Shown: piece by piece, positions 9,045 to 42,063 of the stretch | Layout of the letters: each line of letters begins with the position of its first letter | Numbering within the stretch: the first letter of the stretch is position 1 | DNA from: a virus | DNA: 42,273 nucleotides | Virus record (IMG/VR): IMGVR_UViG_3300045283_000049 | Coordinates: 1-42,273 of that record | Direction: 5' to 3' (one strand) | Translations under genes and position numbers: made by a program | The notes under the pieces: generated by a model | What the model was told of the DNA's origin: nothing | Seen by the model: only the letters and a program-made list of their open reading frames with translations | Databases searched by the model: none

Positions 9045-9362
9045 TTAGGGATTCGGGTCGGCGGCTTTCGCGGCGGTTAGCACGTCGGTCAGCTTCGCAT
9101 CAAGCGAATCCAACTGCGCCTGCGAGACTGGCCCCGGCCCAGCCGACACGAGTAGCCCGATCTCGCGCGCTAGCTCCGCGATGGCCGCGAGAATCGCATC
9201 GACTTTTGCGTTCACTTCATCAATCTTCGCCATGATATGTGCTCCTTGTCGTTCCAAATGTCGGAGATGCTTCTCCATGTGCGCGAGCGTGTGTCGTTGC
9301 GTCGGTCGCTTTCGCGCGAGGGTCTTATTCACAGCGTCCAGAATACCATGCCACAACGTCAC
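9045..9362 (-). CDS. Coiled-coil protein with two nested starts
   Basis: GTG 9362 overlaps the previous stop (GTGA) and opens a 105-residue frame. An internal ATG at 9233 has AAGGAG six bases upstream and would give a 62-residue form, MAKIDEVNAKVDAILAAIAE, a heptad-patterned helix followed by a Gly/Pro turn and a second helix. The N-terminal extension is basic. Both forms may be made. It ends the late block, just before the 12-base-pair hairpin. The function is unknown; an oligomerisation or tail-associated role is possible. Confidence 0.55.
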   Translation of the reverse strand: MTLWHGILDAVNKTLARKRPTQRHTLAHMEKHLRHLERQGAHIMAKIDEVNAKVDAILAAIAELAREIGLLVSAGPGPVSQAQLDSLDAKLTDVLTAAKAADPNP

Positions 9363-12300
9363 TGCTTGACGAGCTTGCAGTTTCCTGCGGCGTCACAAGT
9401 GAATGTATACACCGTCGTGACTGGCGGCGGTGGAGTCGCCACGCACTGCCCATTCATTAACGTGAATCCAGATGGCACGGTCGTTTGAATGCCTGGAATG
9501 TTCGGACAGACATCCACAGGAGGCGGCGGCGGCGTGACACATACCCCGTTCGTCAGCACGGCCGGCGGGACGCACACCGGAGGCGGCGGTGGCAATATCA
9601 CGCACGCCCCATTGACGAGCACTTGCGGCGCGACACAGATCGGCGGCGAGCCTCCTGGTCCCTGTGAGATCGTGAGGTTGATCGCTGTATCTGGCGGCAC
9701 CTCAGTGCCAGGGCCAGGATCTTCGGCCATCACCTGACCAGCGGGCACGTTGGAGCTATTGCCGAACCCCACGAGCCCAGCCTTGAGCCCGAGCGATTGC
9801 AAGACGGTGCGAGCTTCCGCCTCGACGCGGCCGAGCACCCGCGGAACAATGACGCGCGTCTCCGGTGGACAGCCTGTCACGCAGAACTGCTGCGTCGTGG
9901 TGCTGCCAGCGAGGATCGTCGTGGGATCGTTGGGTGAGGCCTTCGGCGTCCGGCCGACCCGCACGGTATGGATCCCCGGCGCGATGTGTTCCGTCGTCGT
10001 CTCGCGATTGTCGAGGAGGTCCTTCGGCCCGATGGCGACGTAATCCCCGCCGTCGATGCTGAACATCATGACGTCTGACGCGGCGTTGTAGTCGCCCGTC
10101 AACATGCAGGAGATGCGAGCGTTGGTCCCGTTCTCGAGCTGCACCGGCCTTCGCAAGTTCGGGAAGGGACACACAGCGCGCGGCGGTCCCAGCGGTGTCG
10201 GCGTGAGCCCTTCGCGTGCCAGGATGCCCACGAAGCCATCCAAGGTGACAGCCTTGGCCGGATCGAGCACGTCACCGCCGAACGAGATGCCGTAGGTATC
10301 CCAGCACTGTTGATTGGTCAGGCCGACCACTGGGCAGTTGAAAATGTCGACGTTCCCGCCCGAGTAGCGCGACGGGTTCGAGCCAAGCGATTCAGGCCGG
10401 AACAGCGTGTAATCTTTCGGCGGCGCTCCAGGGGTCGCCGAGTAGTTCTTCAGGAACCACGTCGAGCCGCGTGCCGGGATGTTCACGCTTAGGCCGGCGT
10501 CAGGGAGCGGTGCCGGTGGCCCAGGCCAGGGCGTCTCCGTCGTGCCCTGCACATACTGATGCTTCGCCGTGCCGAGCGGGAGGAAATGCACGTTGTCAAA
10601 GGTCGTGCTCCGCGTCAGCATGTCGAAGTCCAGTTCGTTCTGGAACGTCGCGTTCTTGATCGTCATGCCAGCCGAGCCGCCGCCGCCCTCGACGCCGGTC
10701 GGACAGCCGCCGACATAGCCGTCAGTGGAATCGAACGTCCCCACGTAGCCCATCGAACTCTTGATGCCGTGTCCGCCGATCCCCGGCGCGCAGACGACGA
10801 TCGGATTCACCAGCGACACGTCGATCCGATCCGAGTTGAAGGCGTCGATCTGGACGTAGCCGTTGTTGACGACGACCAGATTGACCAGAGGCGTCCGCGG
10901 GAGCGCCCAGATCTCCAGCCCTTGCACGATGTTCGAGGCCAGCATGAGATTCGTCACCGACAGCGGGCGATCCACGGCGTGCTTCAGGATCGTATCCGGC
11001 ATCCCCCCGGGCACGCTCGGATAGCTCCCGGCCGGTTGCGCTTGATTGAAGAAATTCACGCCACTGGTGAAGTTGTTGAACGCATAAAGCTGATCGAACG
11101 TGTTCATCACACCGCGGAACCAGAAACCCGTCCCCTCGCCTCCGGGGTTGTTGTTTCTCAATACATTGACTTCCGCGATGTCGCCGCCCCGCGCCCCGGT
11201 GTTGTCGCCGAGGGTATACGCGGCCAACAAATGCCGGAAGGTGTTCCGCACTTCGTAGCCGTCTTCAGTCGTGAAGCCAGCGCCTGAAAAGTCAATCGCG
11301 ATGCAGTCCTGGATCAGCGTGTCGCTCGTATCGTGGAGTGCGAGGCCCCACTTCACGCTGGCGGTGACGCCGAGGCCGCGATAGACGTTGCCGACATCCG
11401 CGCTCGTCGGGCTGGACTGCACATGGTGATGATGCTCGGCATATTTGCCGCGCTGATTGTTTCCAGCCAGACCAGTGGAGGGGTTGAAGTCATTGAGCGG
11501 GATCGCCTTCGTTCGACCGAGGCCGATCAACGCGTTGTTGCGGATGTCCCACGTCGCGCCGTTCGACAAGTCGGCGGTGTGTCCGGGCGTGCCATTCGGG
11601 TTCTCAGAGCGAATGATGATGTTCCGCGTCAGATTCGCGACGATGGGGTGCAACCGAATCACGCCATTCGGATCGACCATATTGGCGTGCGTGAACTCTA
11701 GTGGATGCGAGACGGTGACGGCGTTCCCGTTGATCGCCGTGATGAACAGCGGGGTTTCCCGTTTCACGGTGTAGGCATGCGGATCGGGCGCTCCGGTATC
11801 AGGGATGAGAAGTTCGTCACCGACCTGCGCACCGACGAGTGGACTCGCCAGTGTGAAGGATGAACTACCCGCCAGCAGCGTGCCGGTCGCTTCTACAAAG
11901 TCCGTCTTCTTGCACCCCACGCGCGTCTGCTTCCCGAAGTTCAGGATGCCATTGCCCCATTGGAACTTGTCGCGGACCGTGTCGATGGGGATGTCGCGCA
12001 CAGAGAGATCCACCGTCCGCCCGCAGGGGATCGGGTCCGCCTGTGTGCCAACGTCGAGATAGCCTCCCGGCAGGATGAACAGATGCGTAAAGCTCAGATG
12101 CGTGTCCTGCGTCCGTGACGCGCGCAACGTGCCCGCGACTTCGATGTAGTCGAAGACCTGGTTAGTCGGCAGGTCGGCCACTGTTCCGGCTGGCACGATC
12201 AACTTGTTCGGCAGATCGAGGAACCGCGGCACCGTCTCGGCACCAATGCGGATCTGCGTCGCCTCAACGACGACGGGCATATCGACCATGCCCTGCGTTT

Positions 12301-12364
12301 GTGCCAAGCGCGGCCAGGTCAGCAACAGACCGACAACGAGCGCGAACACCTTAGCTTTGGTCAT
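9359..12364 (-). CDS. Secreted G8 / beta-helix / PASTA protein
   Basis: This 1001-residue protein opens with a signal peptide (hydrophobic VFALVVGLLL, then WPRLAQTQ, about residues 1-24). Residues about 50-140 resemble a G8 domain (LIVPAG, FDYIEVAGTL, FILPGGYLDVG). A long repetitive region rich in short strands (about 200-700) looks like a parallel beta-helix, as in pectate-lyase- and hyaluronidase-type proteins. Residues about 840-903 form a PASTA domain, a fold that binds peptidoglycan in other proteins. The last 98 residues are Pro-rich repeats with the paired motif VxVNGACV/LTNGVCV. It could degrade an extracellular polysaccharide; this is inference. A normal tailspike would have no signal peptide. 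Confidence 0.7.
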   Translation of the reverse strand: MTKAKVFALVVGLLLTWPRLAQTQGMVDMPVVVEATQIRIGAETVPRFLDLPNKLIVPAGTVADLPTNQVFDYIEVAGTLRASRTQDTHLSFTHLFILPGGYLDVGTQADPIPCGRTVDLSVRDIPIDTVRDKFQWGNGILNFGKQTRVGCKKTDFVEATGTLLAGSSSFTLASPLVGAQVGDELLIPDTGAPDPHAYTVKRETPLFITAINGNAVTVSHPLEFTHANMVDPNGVIRLHPIVANLTRNIIIRSENPNGTPGHTADLSNGATWDIRNNALIGLGRTKAIPLNDFNPSTGLAGNNQRGKYAEHHHHVQSSPTSADVGNVYRGLGVTASVKWGLALHDTSDTLIQDCIAIDFSGAGFTTEDGYEVRNTFRHLLAAYTLGDNTGARGGDIAEVNVLRNNNPGGEGTGFWFRGVMNTFDQLYAFNNFTSGVNFFNQAQPAGSYPSVPGGMPDTILKHAVDRPLSVTNLMLASNIVQGLEIWALPRTPLVNLVVVNNGYVQIDAFNSDRIDVSLVNPIVVCAPGIGGHGIKSSMGYVGTFDSTDGYVGGCPTGVEGGGGSAGMTIKNATFQNELDFDMLTRSTTFDNVHFLPLGTAKHQYVQGTTETPWPGPPAPLPDAGLSVNIPARGSTWFLKNYSATPGAPPKDYTLFRPESLGSNPSRYSGGNVDIFNCPVVGLTNQQCWDTYGISFGGDVLDPAKAVTLDGFVGILAREGLTPTPLGPPRAVCPFPNLRRPVQLENGTNARISCMLTGDYNAASDVMMFSIDGGDYVAIGPKDLLDNRETTTEHIAPGIHTVRVGRTPKASPNDPTTILAGSTTTQQFCVTGCPPETRVIVPRVLGRVEAEARTVLQSLGLKAGLVGFGNSSNVPAGQVMAEDPGPGTEVPPDTAINLTISQGPGGSPPICVAPQVLVNGACVILPPPPPVCVPPAVLTNGVCVTPPPPPVDVCPNIPGIQTTVPSGFTLMNGQCVATPPPPVTTVYTFTCDAAGNCKLVKQ

Positions 12365-30682: not shown

Positions 30683-31927
30683 TTAACCCTGGACGCGGGC
30701 TGCGAGCCGCGCCTGGATGGTCGCTGCCCCGATGAGAATATCGGCGCGGCTGGGGTTCTGGTCGGTGGCGATCTGGTATTGTTCGACCACTCGCACATTC
30801 ACGCCGAGCGCTTTGCTGCGCACGGTATAGGCTTCCGCGCCCGAGCCGGGCTTGATGAGATCCGCCATCACGAACGCGAACGCATCGGGATGATAGACGA
30901 GCGAGACGGGCGAAGTTGTCGTCGCCAGCACGCCGCCTGCGGGGTTCGCGCTCCACACCGTAATCGCCGCGCCAGAAGCCGGCGACGCATCGACGGTCTG
31001 CAACGGTCCAGAGGTGATGATCGCGGGACTGATCGGCAGCGTCGCCATGTTGACGCCGACCGATGTGGTGGTCGCCGTGACCACGAACTGCTGCAAACGT
31101 CCCGTGGACTGATACGAAAGCGGATTCACGCTGTTGACGCCGGCGATGGTAAAGATGTCGCCCTTGTTCAGCGTGGCCGCGCTCGAGGCCCAGCCGTTCG
31201 TGTTCAGCACAGAGCCGGTTTGGTTTGCGCCGTTGACGAGCGGCGTCGAAGCCGTGAATGTGCCCGTGGTATGCACGGGACGGTTCGGATCCTGCCACCA
31301 TTCTTCGATCCCGAGTTGGTTGCCGGCGAACATGCCCGTCCGATAGTTGGACGAGATGACGCCAGTTGGATTGAACAGCGCCGTGGATGTGTTTGCGATC
31401 GTCGCCATCGCCAACTGATCGAGCATCGCGCGCCGTCCACCGATGGGCGCCGCGAGGTCGGTCAGTTTCACGCCGGCCTGCAAGTAGGTCAGCGTCGTGC
31501 TCGGCGTGGTGCCAGGCACGCCTACCGCCGAGTAGATGTCACGATAGACCGCCTGGAATGCCAGCACGTCCGAGGCGTTGGCGAGCGTTTCTGCCATCGG
31601 CTGCGTATAGCGCTGCCGGATGTTCTGAAGGTCGGTTGTTTCTTCCGCCGAGCTCCAGCTCATGCCGACGTTCTTCTGGTTCGTCAGCGTGATCGGCACG
31701 GTCTGATCGAACAACGCTTGGACCTGGAGCGCTTCACCGTCTGTCGCGACGAAGCGCTGCGGGAGTCTGGCGTTGACGGTGCGACCAACCTTTGCGCCAC
31801 CTTGCAAATATTGGTCGTCGTAGGTGCGGTTTATGTTGCCTGCCCCAATGAATTTCATTTCATTGAGATAACCGCGAGCGATGTCTTTCGTCACCCAACT
31901 GATTGTCGCGAGCGTATTCACAGCCAT
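30683..31927 (-). CDS. Major coat protein, P22 gp5-like
   Basis: This 414-residue protein (P22 coat 430) starts MAVNTLATISWVTKDIARGY. NRTYDDQYLQGGAKVGRTVN, then RLPQRFVATDGEALQVQALF, and the VPITLTNQKNVGMSWSSAEE segment are typical of the P22 coat family with its HK97-type fold. It follows the scaffold gene and carries no protease neighbour, as in P22, where the coat is not cleaved. It would form the shell of the virion. Confidence 0.85.
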   Translation of the reverse strand: MAVNTLATISWVTKDIARGYLNEMKFIGAGNINRTYDDQYLQGGAKVGRTVNARLPQRFVATDGEALQVQALFDQTVPITLTNQKNVGMSWSSAEETTDLQNIRQRYTQPMAETLANASDVLAFQAVYRDIYSAVGVPGTTPSTTLTYLQAGVKLTDLAAPIGGRRAMLDQLAMATIANTSTALFNPTGVISSNYRTGMFAGNQLGIEEWWQDPNRPVHTTGTFTASTPLVNGANQTGSVLNTNGWASSAATLNKGDIFTIAGVNSVNPLSYQSTGRLQQFVVTATTTSVGVNMATLPISPAIITSGPLQTVDASPASGAAITVWSANPAGGVLATTTSPVSLVYHPDAFAFVMADLIKPGSGAEAYTVRSKALGVNVRVVEQYQIATDQNPSRADILIGAATIQARLAARVQG

Positions 31928-36480: not shown

Positions 36481-37932
36481 TCACAACTTCATCCAAGCCC
36501 CAGGTGCGTTCACGCTAACGCCATCGTCTTCGGTTTGGGCCTGCGCTTCGCGGATTCTGCGGAGTTTTTCGTCTTTTTCGCGTGCGGATGGTTGCCCCAC
36601 GACGAAATTGAGCATGATGTTTTCAAGGCACCGCTGCCAACCGTCCAGCCACTGATCGAACGCTGGCTGTCTAACCGTCTTGTTTCCCACGGAGACGTAG
36701 TTTGGGCTCCAGACATAGGAACCCTCGCAGCCGTCCACGAATAACTTGGTATGTTTCGGCTTCTGGAGCGCTCGAGAGGCCATCAACCAGCGGGACGGAT
36801 CGGCGTTCACGTTGAAGGCTTGGCCTTGCCCTGACCGTCGCAGCATCATCGCGCCGATGTGTTCGATCATCGAGACGCGCACGTCGGGAGCGCTCGCGTT
36901 TTCCCGCCAGCGCGGTTTGAGCTTCGCTTCGCGGAGGATGTCTGCCGTCGTGTAGCGCAATCCGCTCTGGTTGCTCATCGGTGGATCGCAGCAGACGCGC
37001 ACGTCTTCGGGTTCATCGAACCATTCGCGGCGATAGCGCTCCACCATCGGGAGAAAATCTTCGAGGAACAATCGCTTCCCAAGAATCCCGCCGAGGATGT
37101 TCACGCCGCCGAACGTCGAGCGCTGCGCAACGAGCCACGTCGGATGATGTTTGCCAGCGTCGAAGGCTTCCAGCAGCGAGCTATGCGGATCGTAGGTGAG
37201 CGGACGCACATGCGTCTCTCGTTGAAACGCGTTCTCATAGACGGGCGTGCCGGTGATGTTCGGACCGCGCATGCCGAGGATGAGCGATTTATGTTTGGCG
37301 TGAGTGCGCGGGTAGGCGCGCTCCAACATTTCGATTGTGTCGGCTCTCAGGTTGTGGCGGTTGTCGTAGAGCGAGAGCCGATAGTATTTCCGGCCGGGAA
37401 GATCCTGATCGTCTGGAAATTGATCCGCGAGGAAGTGTTCTTCGTCGGGCGGGTTCGGCGAAAACATCAACTGATACGGATAGCCTCCAGGTTGTCGCAA
37501 CAGCGCGCGCATTTCCGTCGCGATGTCTTCGGGCATTTCTTCGCTCTGATCGTTCCAGAGGCCAGAGACGCCACTGCCGCGGATCTTCGAGAAGCGCGCG
37601 TCCTTCGATTGTGTTTTCAATCCATAGGCGAAGACTTTCGAGACTTTGCCGTCGCGCTCTGGGAAGTGATACGCGGATTCTTCGTTGTCCCACGCGACTT
37701 CTGTGCCGAGCGCGCGGCAGACTTGCACGAACTGCGGGCGGAGCTGGTTATCTGTTTCCGTGCCCGAGTAGCGGTTGATCAACCACCAGATACCTGGATG
37801 TTTGATGCAGGAGTTGTGAACCTTCGCTGAGCACACCCACGTCTTGCCCGACATCCGCGCGCCTTCGATGTCGAGTTCTGGCGTCTCGTCTTCGAGGATC
37901 TGTTGGTGGATGCCTTGAAACGTGAGGATCAT
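36481..37932 (-). CDS. terL: Terminase large subunit
   Basis: This 483-residue protein (P22 gp2 499) starts MILTFQGIHQQILEDETPEL. A Walker A-type loop GARMSGKTW (about residues 24-32) and a Walker B-type GLWNDQSEE (about 124-132) mark the ATPase. In the second half SSLLEAFDAGKHHPTW holds the first acidic residue of a nuclease, followed by FDEPEDVRVCCDPPMSNQSG. This is the motor that packages DNA into the head. No small subunit is identified; the upstream small genes are candidates by position. Confidence 0.9.
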   Translation of the reverse strand: MILTFQGIHQQILEDETPELDIEGARMSGKTWVCSAKVHNSCIKHPGIWWLINRYSGTETDNQLRPQFVQVCRALGTEVAWDNEESAYHFPERDGKVSKVFAYGLKTQSKDARFSKIRGSGVSGLWNDQSEEMPEDIATEMRALLRQPGGYPYQLMFSPNPPDEEHFLADQFPDDQDLPGRKYYRLSLYDNRHNLRADTIEMLERAYPRTHAKHKSLILGMRGPNITGTPVYENAFQRETHVRPLTYDPHSSLLEAFDAGKHHPTWLVAQRSTFGGVNILGGILGKRLFLEDFLPMVERYRREWFDEPEDVRVCCDPPMSNQSGLRYTTADILREAKLKPRWRENASAPDVRVSMIEHIGAMMLRRSGQGQAFNVNADPSRWLMASRALQKPKHTKLFVDGCEGSYVWSPNYVSVGNKTVRQPAFDQWLDGWQRCLENIMLNFVVGQPSAREKDEKLRRIREAQAQTEDDGVSVNAPGAWMKL

Positions 37933-38364: not shown

Positions 38365-38428
38365 ATGGTTCCACCGCTTGCGCTTTCAGCATTGAACGGT
38401 TCGCGGCTTTGTCGGCGGTTTTAGACAT
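38285..38428 (-). CDS. Uncertain 47-residue ORF
   Basis: From ATG 38428, overlapping the previous TAA by 8 bases, the frame reads MSKTADKAANRSMLKAQAVE, then PYAAPSRRNKTCGRELVDGW and stops at 38285, with about 80 bases lying on the gene at 38194-38364. The first 20 residues look coding; the rest looks like an out-of-frame reading. It may be the true N-terminus of the downstream gene after a frame break. Confidence 0.3.
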   Translation of the reverse strand: MSKTADKAANRSMLKAQAVEPYAAPSRRNKTCGRELVDGWRESRSST

Positions 38429-38642
38429 GCTCTTTCCCGTCGTTGACAAGCGGTTCGATGATGTATCGGTTCATCTCGACCCATGCACGCTCAGTGATGG
38501 ATTTAATCGTTGCGCGAGTGCCGGCCGTGATTTCGGACGGAGGCAGCGACATTGAGAGTTGTTTCTGTGTGATCGCGAGCAAAACATGCGGGGCGTTCTC
38601 ATCGAGATCGAGCACTTTGATCGTGACCGAAAAACTAATCAC
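38421..38642 (-). CDS. Hypothetical small protein
   Basis: This 73-residue protein starts at GTG 38642 (ISFSVTIKVLDLDENAPHVL), overlapping the metalloprotease stop (GTGA). It has a beta-rich start and helices further on (ITAGTRATIKSITERAWVEM). No family is recognised. Co-translation with the metalloprotease may mean shared expression, not shared function. Confidence 0.5.
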   Translation of the reverse strand: MISFSVTIKVLDLDENAPHVLLAITQKQLSMSLPPSEITAGTRATIKSITERAWVEMNRYIIEPLVNDGKEHV

Positions 38643-39628
38643 TGAGCCCTCATCGGCGCAAGGTTGACGGCTGTTAGTGGGTCGTCGTCAGGGAATGTAT
38701 TTCCGACTGGCCGGCGATACGCGATTGCGGCGTGGAGAAGTTCTCGTGCTGACGGTTGCATGTTCGCTTGTGACTGCGACCAACCGCCGCGCGCCATCAG
38801 ATCGCTGGGATTGTCCGTGTGCCAAAATCCGAGTGCATGGCCGAGTTCGTGACGCACCGTGCGCGCAGCGACGACGGTTGCAGATGTGCGACACGTGGAT
38901 CCGTTCACGTCTGGTCCGTGATAATTCAACTCGATGAAGCCGCCTTCAAGTCCCACATCAGCACGGCCGCAGAATCCGTCGAGCAGCATATTCGTGGCGG
39001 GGAATCGCACGGTGATCCAACCAGGGACGCCGAGCTGTGAGCCTGTTCCGCGTGTAATCATTGGTGTGCCGAGTGCGCCAGAAGTCCACTGCGGCACCGC
39101 GGATCGGATCGTGGCTTCGATCAGATCCAGCATGGGACCGTGAATGGCTTCGCCGGCTTCATCGACGGTTTTGAGATAAATCTGCGGGGTGCGTGTCCAA
39201 CGTCGTAGCGGTTCGTTGCCGGTTCCATCGGCCGCGTTGCGCACCATCTGCCGATAGAGCACTGGATCGAAACTTCCGCCGAGCGCAATCGCATCGAGGT
39301 TCACCGTGCGCGAGGTATTCACGGCTGCACTGACTGAGCGCGGCAGAATGGTTACGCCCGTTAGTGAAATCCGCGGTGTGCCGAACTGTTGCGTGCTTGT
39401 GAAATTCCCGAGTGCATCAGTCAACGCAGATTGACCGTTGATGTTCACGGAGACACCGCCGAGCGCTTGTCCTCCGTTCGTGGCGGTGACGTGAAGACTT
39501 ACTGTTGCCGCGGTGGGCGCCGGCGGAACGACAACGACTGGCGGAGGTGTCACGCTTGGACTGGTGGGCGAACTCCCGCCGCAGCTCGCGCACAGAACGG
39601 CGACTAATGCGACGAGATATTTTCTCAT
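38639..39628 (-). CDS. Lipoprotein metalloprotease, matrixin-type signature
   Basis: This 329-residue protein starts MRKYLVALVAVLCASCGGSS. A short hydrophobic signal ends in C-A-S-C (Cys16), a probable lipoprotein site, followed by a Pro/Thr/Val linker. Residues about 40-80 look like an Ig- or carboxypeptidase-regulatory-type domain. At residues 260-278 lies HELGHALGFWHTDNPSDLM, the zinc-binding HExxHxxGxxH plus a Met-turn, spaced as in matrix metalloproteases. Cysteines near 221 and 239 could form a disulfide. It would be exported and act at the cell surface. A cell-envelope or host-surface protease is inferred; it is unusual in a phage. Confidence 0.7.
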   Translation of the reverse strand: MRKYLVALVAVLCASCGGSSPTSPSVTPPPVVVVPPAPTAATVSLHVTATNGGQALGGVSVNINGQSALTDALGNFTSTQQFGTPRISLTGVTILPRSVSAAVNTSRTVNLDAIALGGSFDPVLYRQMVRNAADGTGNEPLRRWTRTPQIYLKTVDEAGEAIHGPMLDLIEATIRSAVPQWTSGALGTPMITRGTGSQLGVPGWITVRFPATNMLLDGFCGRADVGLEGGFIELNYHGPDVNGSTCRTSATVVAARTVRHELGHALGFWHTDNPSDLMARGGWSQSQANMQPSARELLHAAIAYRRPVGNTFPDDDPLTAVNLAPMRAQ

Positions 39629-39642: not shown

Positions 39643-39649
39643 GGGGCTC

Positions 39650-39877
39650 TCACGCCTCAACCGGCAAATTAGCTCTGAACGTCCACGTTAAACAACCACA
39701 CTGACAGTTCATGCCATCAATCGGTTGCTGGTTTGGATCATCAGGACGTGTCCACCAACCCCAGACGTGATACGCGTGAATATTGCAGTTCTTCGGCGCG
39801 CGAGGCTTTCTGAACTTCGCGATCGTGACAACTTGAATGACGGCGCGAAATTCTAAACCGAGATGTTTGTCTTTCAT
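39650..39877 (-). CDS. Hypothetical protein with Cys-rich end
   Basis: This 75-residue protein starts MKDKHLGLEFRAVIQVVTIA; GTGAGAGCC precedes ATG 39877. It has a basic middle (KFRKPRAPKNCNIHAYHVWG) and the motif CQCGCLTW near the end, a possible zinc site with CNIH. Located directly before the metalloprotease gene. The function is unknown. Confidence 0.5.
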   Translation of the reverse strand: MKDKHLGLEFRAVIQVVTIAKFRKPRAPKNCNIHAYHVWGWWTRPDDPNQQPIDGMNCQCGCLTWTFRANLPVEA

Positions 39878-39906
39878 GGCTCTCACGCCTTGACATCGCC
39901 CAACCG

Positions 39907-40161
39907 CTACCCACGTTTCCAAATTACGCCCTGAAACTCCGCCGCGATTTTCGCGATGGGATCCATGTCTTCGAGTTTCGGCACGGTGCTCTTGACCAAT
40001 TCCGGTAGGTCAGCCGGCGCCGCACCTTCGCATTCCTGACAGCGAATCTTGACGCGCTTCACACCTGGAAGCGTGATGAACAGCGCCGGATCTTCGGCGG
40101 GAATCAACGCACGGCAGCTCCCGCAGAAGGTCGGCACGGCCACGCGATTCCACGCCCTCAT
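39907..40161 (-). CDS. Hypothetical zinc-finger protein
   Basis: This 84-residue protein starts MRAWNRVAVPTFCGSCRALI. CGSC and CQEC, 26 residues apart, frame a beta-rich loop (DPALFITLPGVKRVKIR). This fits a zinc ribbon. It overlaps the HNH gene before it (ATGA). A role in DNA binding is possible. No exact family. Confidence 0.5.
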   Translation of the reverse strand: MRAWNRVAVPTFCGSCRALIPAEDPALFITLPGVKRVKIRCQECEGAAPADLPELVKSTVPKLEDMDPIAKIAAEFQGVIWKRG

Positions 40162-41763: not shown

Positions 41764-42024
41764 CTAGACTTGCGGGTCCGTGCAAGTTTCGTCGATATTT
41801 ATTTTCGTATCAACAGTTAGGCTATTGACTTTTGGTAGCGGGATGTAGACGACTTGGCGCTTTAGGCTGAAGTGGCCGAGCAGAACATCGTTCGGTTCGA
41901 TCTTCCCATTGATGACGCGCGAGAGCGTGGACTCAGAGACACCGAACCGCTCTGCGGCCTTCCATCGAGTCGGGGATTTATTGGCCTCCGCCTGGAGGAG
42001 CCGAAGGAACTGTCGTTGCGTCAT
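41764..42024 (-). CDS. Cro/CI-type helix-turn-helix repressor
   Basis: This 86-residue protein starts MTQRQFLRLLQAEANKSPTR. The helix-turn-helix is AAERFGVSESTLSRVINGKI (about residues 24-43), as in HTH_3 and XRE-type regulators. The rest is a short beta-rich C-terminus (RQVVYIPLPKVNSLTVDTKI), too short for a full CI dimer domain. ATG 42024 was chosen as it lies 9 bases after a -10 box without a Shine-Dalgarno site; an upstream TTG frame exists. It faces a divergent promoter, as in a phage genetic switch. Confidence 0.7.
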   Translation of the reverse strand: MTQRQFLRLLQAEANKSPTRWKAAERFGVSESTLSRVINGKIEPNDVLLGHFSLKRQVVYIPLPKVNSLTVDTKINIDETCTDPQV

Positions 42025-42033
42025 AACGCAATG

Positions 42034-42063
42034 AGTATCGGTCAAGCAAGGCGAGTAATGCAA
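42034..42063 (-). promoter_or_regulatory. Predicted repressor promoter, nearly leaderless
   Basis: On the minus strand TTGCAT (42063-42058) and GATACT (42039-42034) are 18 bases apart. The ATG of the repressor lies 9 bases after the -10 box, the same distance as at the left promoter (215 to 225), again without a Shine-Dalgarno sequence. This would make the mRNA leaderless. Confidence 0.5.

Follow-up and report, generated by a model that had tools for sequence, protein, structure and literature searches.

The protease gene and its surroundings

The window analyzed here (the whole stretch of 42,273 nucleotides, positions 1 to 42,273 of IMG/VR virus record IMGVR_UViG_3300045283_000049) carries a minus-strand open reading frame (ORF) that encodes 329 amino acids from an ATG start, and its coding bias score of 20.1 supports a real gene. 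The features of the locus are listed in Table 1. The protein begins with MRKYLVALVAVLCASCGGSSPTSPS, and its N terminus, MRKYLVALVAVLCASC followed by GGSS, is a lipoprotein-type signal. Such a signal had been claimed in the first-pass annotation, and the claim held up. All nine full-length phage copies keep C16, although the −3 residue of the lipobox in the window is a Cys, which is unusual and absent from strict lipobox patterns. A Sec signal with a lipobox Cys is thus present, and lipidation is predicted.

Residues 260 to 278 read HELGHALGFWHTDNPSDLM, and H260, E261, H264, G267, H270, and M278 stand at the positions given for the zinc-protease signature in the first reading. A six-frame search of the window gave a single HExxHxxGxxH motif, versus 0.003 occurrences expected from order-1 Markov copies, and Met278 follows the third His by 8 residues, as in an alignment with MMP-14. 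A cysteine-switch propeptide is absent, there being no Cys between C16 and C220, and C220 itself lies inside the catalytic domain. The resemblance of the N-terminal beta-sandwich to carboxypeptidase-regulatory domains is weak in the window protease and clearer in other family members, with CarbopepD_reg_2 matching 11 and CarboxypepD_reg 7 of 17; this domain is missing from L006 and L017.

The gene is codirectional with its neighbors in a minus-strand run that extends from a helix-turn-helix (HTH) gene (positions 41764 to 42063) to the terminase gene, ca. 0.7 kb downstream of the protease. Its stop codon shares four bases, GTGA (38639 to 38642), with the start of the next ORF. The protease had been placed on the control/replication side of the genome, and with the run starting at the HTH gene this placement holds, even though the terminase is just 0.7 kb away. 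Neither an integrase nor any other recombinase of the tyrosine or serine type was detected in the window, which at 42.3 kb is about the same size as its relatives. A promoter and terminator scan yielded nothing above chance, and PADLOC assigned the protease to no defense family. Immediately before the protease, two successive gene junctions contain GCGTGAGAGCC on the minus strand (39645 to 39655 and 39878 to 39888), each copy being followed by CATGAAAGA; these copies may mark an insertion or a duplication.

Table 1. Features of the protease locus in the window
Feature	Position	Strand	Basis
Lipoprotein metzincin, whole gene	38639..39628	-	ORF; coding score; bacterial homologues and homologues on nine further phage contigs
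Sec/SPII-type signal peptide, residues 1-15	39584..39628	-	Sequence; like signals in other phage copies
Lipobox cysteine C16, predicted lipid-attachment site	39581..39583	-	Invariant in nine full-length phage copies
Pro/Ser/Val-rich linker, residues 17-40	39509..39580	-	Low model confidence
Carboxypeptidase-regulatory-like beta-sandwich domain, residues ~41-116	39281..39508	-	Model strands 40-115
Matrixin-fold catalytic domain, residues ~117-322	38663..39280	-	AlphaFold2 model; PDB matches
Cys220, possible disulfide with Cys246	38969..38971	-	Cys invariant in phage copies
Cys246, possible disulfide with Cys220	38891..38893	-	Cys invariant in phage copies
HELGHALGFWH zinc site, H260 E261 H264 H270	38819..38851	-	Invariant in phage copies
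Met278 of the Met-turn	38795..38797	-	Invariant in phage copies
73-aa ORF of no known family; GTG start overlaps the protease stop	38421..38642	-	Sequence
Terminase large subunit; first of the packaging genes, downstream of the protease	36481..37932	-	PHROG terminase, E 1.3e-9
Small ORF adjoining the protease gene on its upstream side	39650..39922	-	ORF list

Two features elsewhere in the window were recorded as well. A 1001-aa protein with an N-terminal signal-like peptide is encoded at the far end of the late block (9359 to 12364, minus strand) and contains a G8-like stretch (below cut-off), a CEMIP beta-helix, and a PASTA domain. No full-length relative of it was found in phage records, and the PADLOC matches to PD-T4-6 covered the PASTA part only; a role as a spike, or as a further exported cargo, is conceivable. 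In addition, a 52-nt leader (98% identity between copies) precedes two separate ORFs on the plus strand, at 1095 to 1146 and at 2595 to 2646; it ends with AGGAGCGA-AATCATGA and may be a repeated expression signal.

Fold and family assignment

AlphaFold2 models were built for the whole protein from seven related sequences and for the catalytic part from eleven. The whole-protein model had a mean pLDDT of 74 with a confident catalytic core, while the catalytic model reached a pLDDT of 85.2 and a pTM of 0.87. In the latter, the predicted elements (H49-66, E76-79, E89-93, E106-108, E115-119, H140-150, and H179-190) follow the order of the metzincin fold, i.e., strands and a long helix, the active-site helix, and a C-terminal helix. 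For both models, all 50 of the 50 PDB matches listed were catalytic domains or chains of matrix metalloproteases (MMPs), bacterial karilysin included, with a prob of 1.0 and E values down to 2.1e-6. The superposition on MMPs was moderate (rmsd mostly 4.5 to 6 Å), as expected for a distant MMP relative, and TM-scores by target length were ca. 0.54 to 0.65 for most isolated MMP catalytic domains.

Profile libraries did recover the metzincin families that the first-pass annotation had led us to look for, with the scores of Pfam matrixin (PF00413, 19.3 bits; cut-off, 24) and astacin (18 bits; cut-off, 22.5) both below threshold. The NCBIfam fragilysin model gave 21.8 bits versus a cut-off of 190.7, and the PHROGs profile search returned nothing useful, only sub-threshold matches. 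Since all of these scores fell below their cut-offs, profile evidence alone would not settle the assignment, and the protease belongs to an unnamed subfamily. At an E value of ≤0.1, PF00413 was matched by 14 and Astacin by 15 of 17 family members. The protease also has a C-terminal motif in which E296, A300, Y304, and G309 are invariant in phage copies. Because it fails the Pfam matrixin cut-off and is without a cysteine-switch propeptide, we refer to a matrixin-fold lipoprotein subfamily rather than to a matrixin. As judged from the models and their PDB matches, which back the earlier suggestion of an exported metzincin of the matrixin fold, the gene product has the matrix-metalloprotease fold and belongs to the metzincin clan; with its lipoprotein signal, it is a predicted membrane-anchored zinc protease.

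Phage carriers and conservation of the protease

Scans of IMG/VR revealed ten phage contigs that carry the protease, the window included. A degenerate DNA pattern for the active site retrieved five contigs, all five of which align beyond the motif, and tail-fiber alignment scans added four carriers (L166/G562, L168/G564, L170/G566, and L172/G568). All protease-carrying phage contigs are metagenomic. Single-sequence scans of viral and genome contigs yielded no close relatives of the protease, no true relative was present in a plasmid collection, and there was none among 50,697 catalogued phage records, in agreement with the impression at first reading that few phages encode an exported metzincin. 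Two phage records with a "Matrixin" match bear the same label; the one examined (L079, CAKLQH020000026.1, labeled Acinetobacter phage MD-2021a) reads here as a piece of bacterial chromosome, with grpE, dnaK, purK, and purE, and the match was rejected.

The nine full-length phage copies share a mean identity of 40% (minimum, 32%), and only 24 positions are invariant across them. These include C16, C220, C246, H260, E261, G263, H264, G267, H270, L277, M278, and E296. With the lipobox Cys, the zinc ligands, and the Met all invariant, export, the zinc site, and the Met-turn have been kept; loss of the signature among related phages, which would have spoken against the first reading, was thus not seen in these copies. 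Such conservation is strong evidence, at the sequence level, for a working enzyme.

The carriers are related to the window phage to different degrees. L003 shares with it the terminase (39% identity) and the portal (47%), L004 the portal (26%) and the major capsid protein (43%), L005 and L006 the tail fiber (48 to 51%), and L166, L168, L170, and L172 again the tail fiber (ca. 46 to 53%). G002 has only the protease in common with the window; besides an integrase and late genes of phage type, it carries recombination genes with relatives in L006 and L016. The major capsid protein of the window (30683 to 31927, minus strand) is ca. 67 to 77% identical to proteins of at least 80 environmental contigs, whereas a scan of viral contigs found no relative of its portal and a terminase scan of contigs found one relative only. 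On these grounds the window genome looks strongly mosaic, a picture that the choice of patterns may exaggerate.

Position of the protease gene in other phages

In L003 (L015), the nearest relative of the window phage, the protease gene overlaps a helicase gene, whereas in L004 the portal gene comes directly after it. In seven phages (L005, L006, L166, L168, L170, L172, and G002), it is convergent with the end of the late block, on the strand opposite to the late genes. An HTH regulator lies just upstream of the protease in L006. The order in G002 is HTH, integrase (PF00589, E 1.6e-10), tRNA-Arg match, and protease: 39 nt are identical to the 5′ part of tRNA-Arg(TCG), and the ATG of the protease is found ca. 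14 nt beyond. Similarly, in G566 the HTH and integrase genes are followed by a 25-nt exact match to the 3′ part of tRNA-Sec and then by the protease; a tRNA-Ser end was rejected as the source of this match, because ARAGORN identified tRNA-Sec on the matching genomes. By sequence, both matches beside the integrase genes are attP-like. The attP-adjacent position is thus seen in G002 and G566 and not in the window. The first-pass annotation had raised expression in a prophage state, which for the family finds support in the position in these two members; this support does not extend to the window, where no recombinase was detected and the gene run leads into packaging genes.

Comparison with L007 gave no clean empty site, as only the flanking genes are recognizably shared with the window; the gap from the shared upstream gene to the terminase is ca. 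0.7 kb in L007 versus 2.0 kb in the window. Two unrelated lipoproteins, L263 (6928 to 7761, minus strand) and L247 (1504 to 2364, plus strand), are encoded near integrase genes in two related phages, G563 and G585, which suggests that surface lipoproteins as a class are carried near the integrase. Lipoprotein-like ORFs with a Pro/Ser-rich start were few in a regex count over 78 tail-fiber loci; of those on the strand opposite the fiber, most were the metzincin, a result to be taken as a hint.

Bacterial relatives and gene history

The acidobacterial metagenome-assembled genome SCN 69-37 served as the entry point to its GTDB class, probably Vicinamibacteria. Protease matches at an E value of ≤1e-8 were present in 45 of 193 genomes of this class, the weaker ones being perhaps other metzincins. 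The closest cellular relative (L026 in G060) is 51% identical over its full length, and in three bacterial contigs read closely the protease gene has ordinary chromosomal neighbors and no phage genes around it. In an even sample of the phylum (396 genomes), 15 matched at an E value of ≤1e-12, the strongest all being from the same acidobacterial class. Gene kinship and conserved tRNA sequence are the grounds on which the hosts are placed among soil-type Acidobacteria.

In a protease tree of about 200 columns, the window and L003 copies are sisters (97/93) and stand next to the cellular copy of G060 (100/98), whereas the L172 copy clusters with the cellular one from SCN 69-37 (91/88). L006, L166, and G002 form one clade (100/99), and L168 and L170 form another outside the main group. 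A single phage clade was rejected by the AU test with five copies (p = 0.014) and with nine (p = 0.006), so that one phage origin of the protease was discarded. The well-supported branches require at least 3 label changes, which may reflect separate gains or a mixture of gains and losses. Since the phage copies are not one clade, the gene must have crossed between cells and phages at least twice; transfer from cell to phage is the simpler reading of the tree, because cellular copies are more widely spread.

No prophage with both the window portal lineage and the protease was seen in the 193 host-class genomes. Portal relatives turned up in only two of them, neither listed as a protease carrier; these loci, L070 (G112:C400) and L071 (G188:C1043), are perhaps prophages or phage contigs binned with host-class genomes.

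Proposed role and alternatives

The reading that we prefer, and to which we would give an even chance, is that the protease is a host-derived envelope lipoprotein, captured repeatedly as phage cargo, mainly for lysogenic conversion, that alters the surface of the infected cell, the likeliest benefit being the blocking of other phages. Given relatives in at least nine other phages and uptake from bacteria on more than one occasion, phages probably use the protease to change the infected-cell surface. The gene would have been taken from an acidobacterial host, where its relatives are ordinary chromosomal lipoproteins, and phages would have acquired such genes more than once. As its signal predicts, the protein would be exported by Sec, lipidated at Cys16, and anchored in the envelope, with the Pro-rich linker and the small beta-sandwich domain serving as the tether. 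The flexibly held zinc endopeptidase may then cut at least one surface or periplasmic protein, and the changed surface would block other phages. The usual payoff for a prophage that alters surface proteins is to keep other phages out; we put superinfection exclusion, within the broader cargo reading, at about one in three. Carriage of the gene is rare, which counts against this role, as does the fact that the 193 host-class genomes yielded no prophage combining the portal lineage with the protease.

The attP side is a typical place for lysogenic-conversion genes, and since the protease gene lies where such genes lie in most carriers, it is probably made by lysogens there. Counted against expression in lysogens are the undetected integrase of the window, the overlap of the window gene with an ORF near the terminase, and its overlap with the helicase gene in L003. 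Given these two positions and the missing integrase, the argument for prophage expression does not reach the window phage directly; its contig is also of a size like that of its relatives, and expression during infection is as likely for this phage as expression in a lysogen. A more specific proposal, which we hold to be possible yet rather doubtful, is that temperate phages of Acidobacteria have an attP-side slot for exchangeable surface lipoproteins whose commonest occupant is the metzincin; as a membrane-anchored protease, it would remove or alter surface proteins of the lysogen and so exclude other phages by proteolysis.

Other explanations were weighed against the preferred one. The enzyme could be a helper in lysis or envelope remodeling whose late cut of an envelope protein speeds lysis and release, as for Mtz-Tim of Listeria. 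A secreted, phage-associated metzincin with such an effect has been published (PMC8235301), and the protease sits at the distal end of the late block in seven relatives; the strand opposite to the late genes means, however, that it is not simply cotranscribed with the lysis genes, and no recurrent Tim-like partner was seen beside it when the neighbors were read by eye, so that we regard this explanation as unlikely. We think it equally improbable that the bacterial role was kept and that the protease acts as an auxiliary metabolic gene, digesting external or surface protein to the benefit of host fitness. Membership in a bacterial lipoprotein family with ordinary chromosomal members fits that idea, but an anchored enzyme made per infected cell would be a poor bulk scavenger.

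That the gene is a functionless bacterial passenger, caught by the phage by chance or misjoined in assembly, appears very improbable. In favor of a passenger, every contig is a metagenome assembly and the gene position differs between the window and its relatives; on the other side, recognizable phage genes from one common lineage are present on nine of the ten contigs, G002 as the tenth has an integrase and phage-type late genes, the frames are intact with an invariant active site, and the window gene overlaps the next one by four bases.

Relation to known systems and significance

The closest precedent for the window protease is the Mtz-Tim pair of Listeria (PMC8235301). Mtz is an exported metzincin with HExxHxxGxxH and a Met-turn, carried as an accessory gene in prophages; the pair neighbors regulators of the XRE/cI-cro type, acts on the envelope of the bacterium itself, and has been proposed to speed lysis and release (PMC8235301). 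By description, the window protease shares with Mtz export, the zinc motif, and the Met-turn. The two differ in their signals, that of Mtz being of the SPI (secreted) type; in the Listeria pair the lipoprotein is the partner, Tim, whereas in the window it is the protease itself. Listeria and the acidobacterial hosts also belong to different phyla. When neighboring ORFs were inspected by eye in the window, L006, L016, L015, L166, and L170, no TIMP-like lipoprotein adjoined the protease.

Matrixins (PF00413, with bacterial karilysin) have the fold, the zinc motif, and the Met-turn spacing in common with the window protease, which differs from them in its sub-threshold Pfam score, the lack of a cysteine-switch propeptide, the lipobox, an extra pair of conserved Cys, and a C-terminal motif of its own. 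MMP-fold proteases are also carried by insect viruses (granulovirus, entomopoxvirus, and ascovirus); those are animal viruses whose enzymes are 12 to 19% identical in the fold comparison, while the relatives of the window gene are bacterial, as is its lipoprotein signal. T5 Llp, a small phage lipoprotein in the host envelope that blocks superinfection by binding the receptor, resembles the window protease as a phage-encoded lipoprotein of the host envelope; it is without a protease domain, and exclusion by the window protease is what we infer.

Phage-linked metzincins are thus already known from Mtz, to which the present family adds a lipid-anchored form, an acidobacterial source, repeated capture, and an attP-side position as new features. 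No earlier description was found in the literature covered, most subscription journals lying outside that coverage. Most descriptions of surface-acting phage exclusion factors concern binders or masks; a protease that is anchored and that phages have recruited more than once would represent a different way to change the host surface. Acidobacteria rank with the commonest bacteria of soil, yet their phages are little studied; the protease gene offers a handle on these phages and a defined locus with which to test lysogenic conversion in them.
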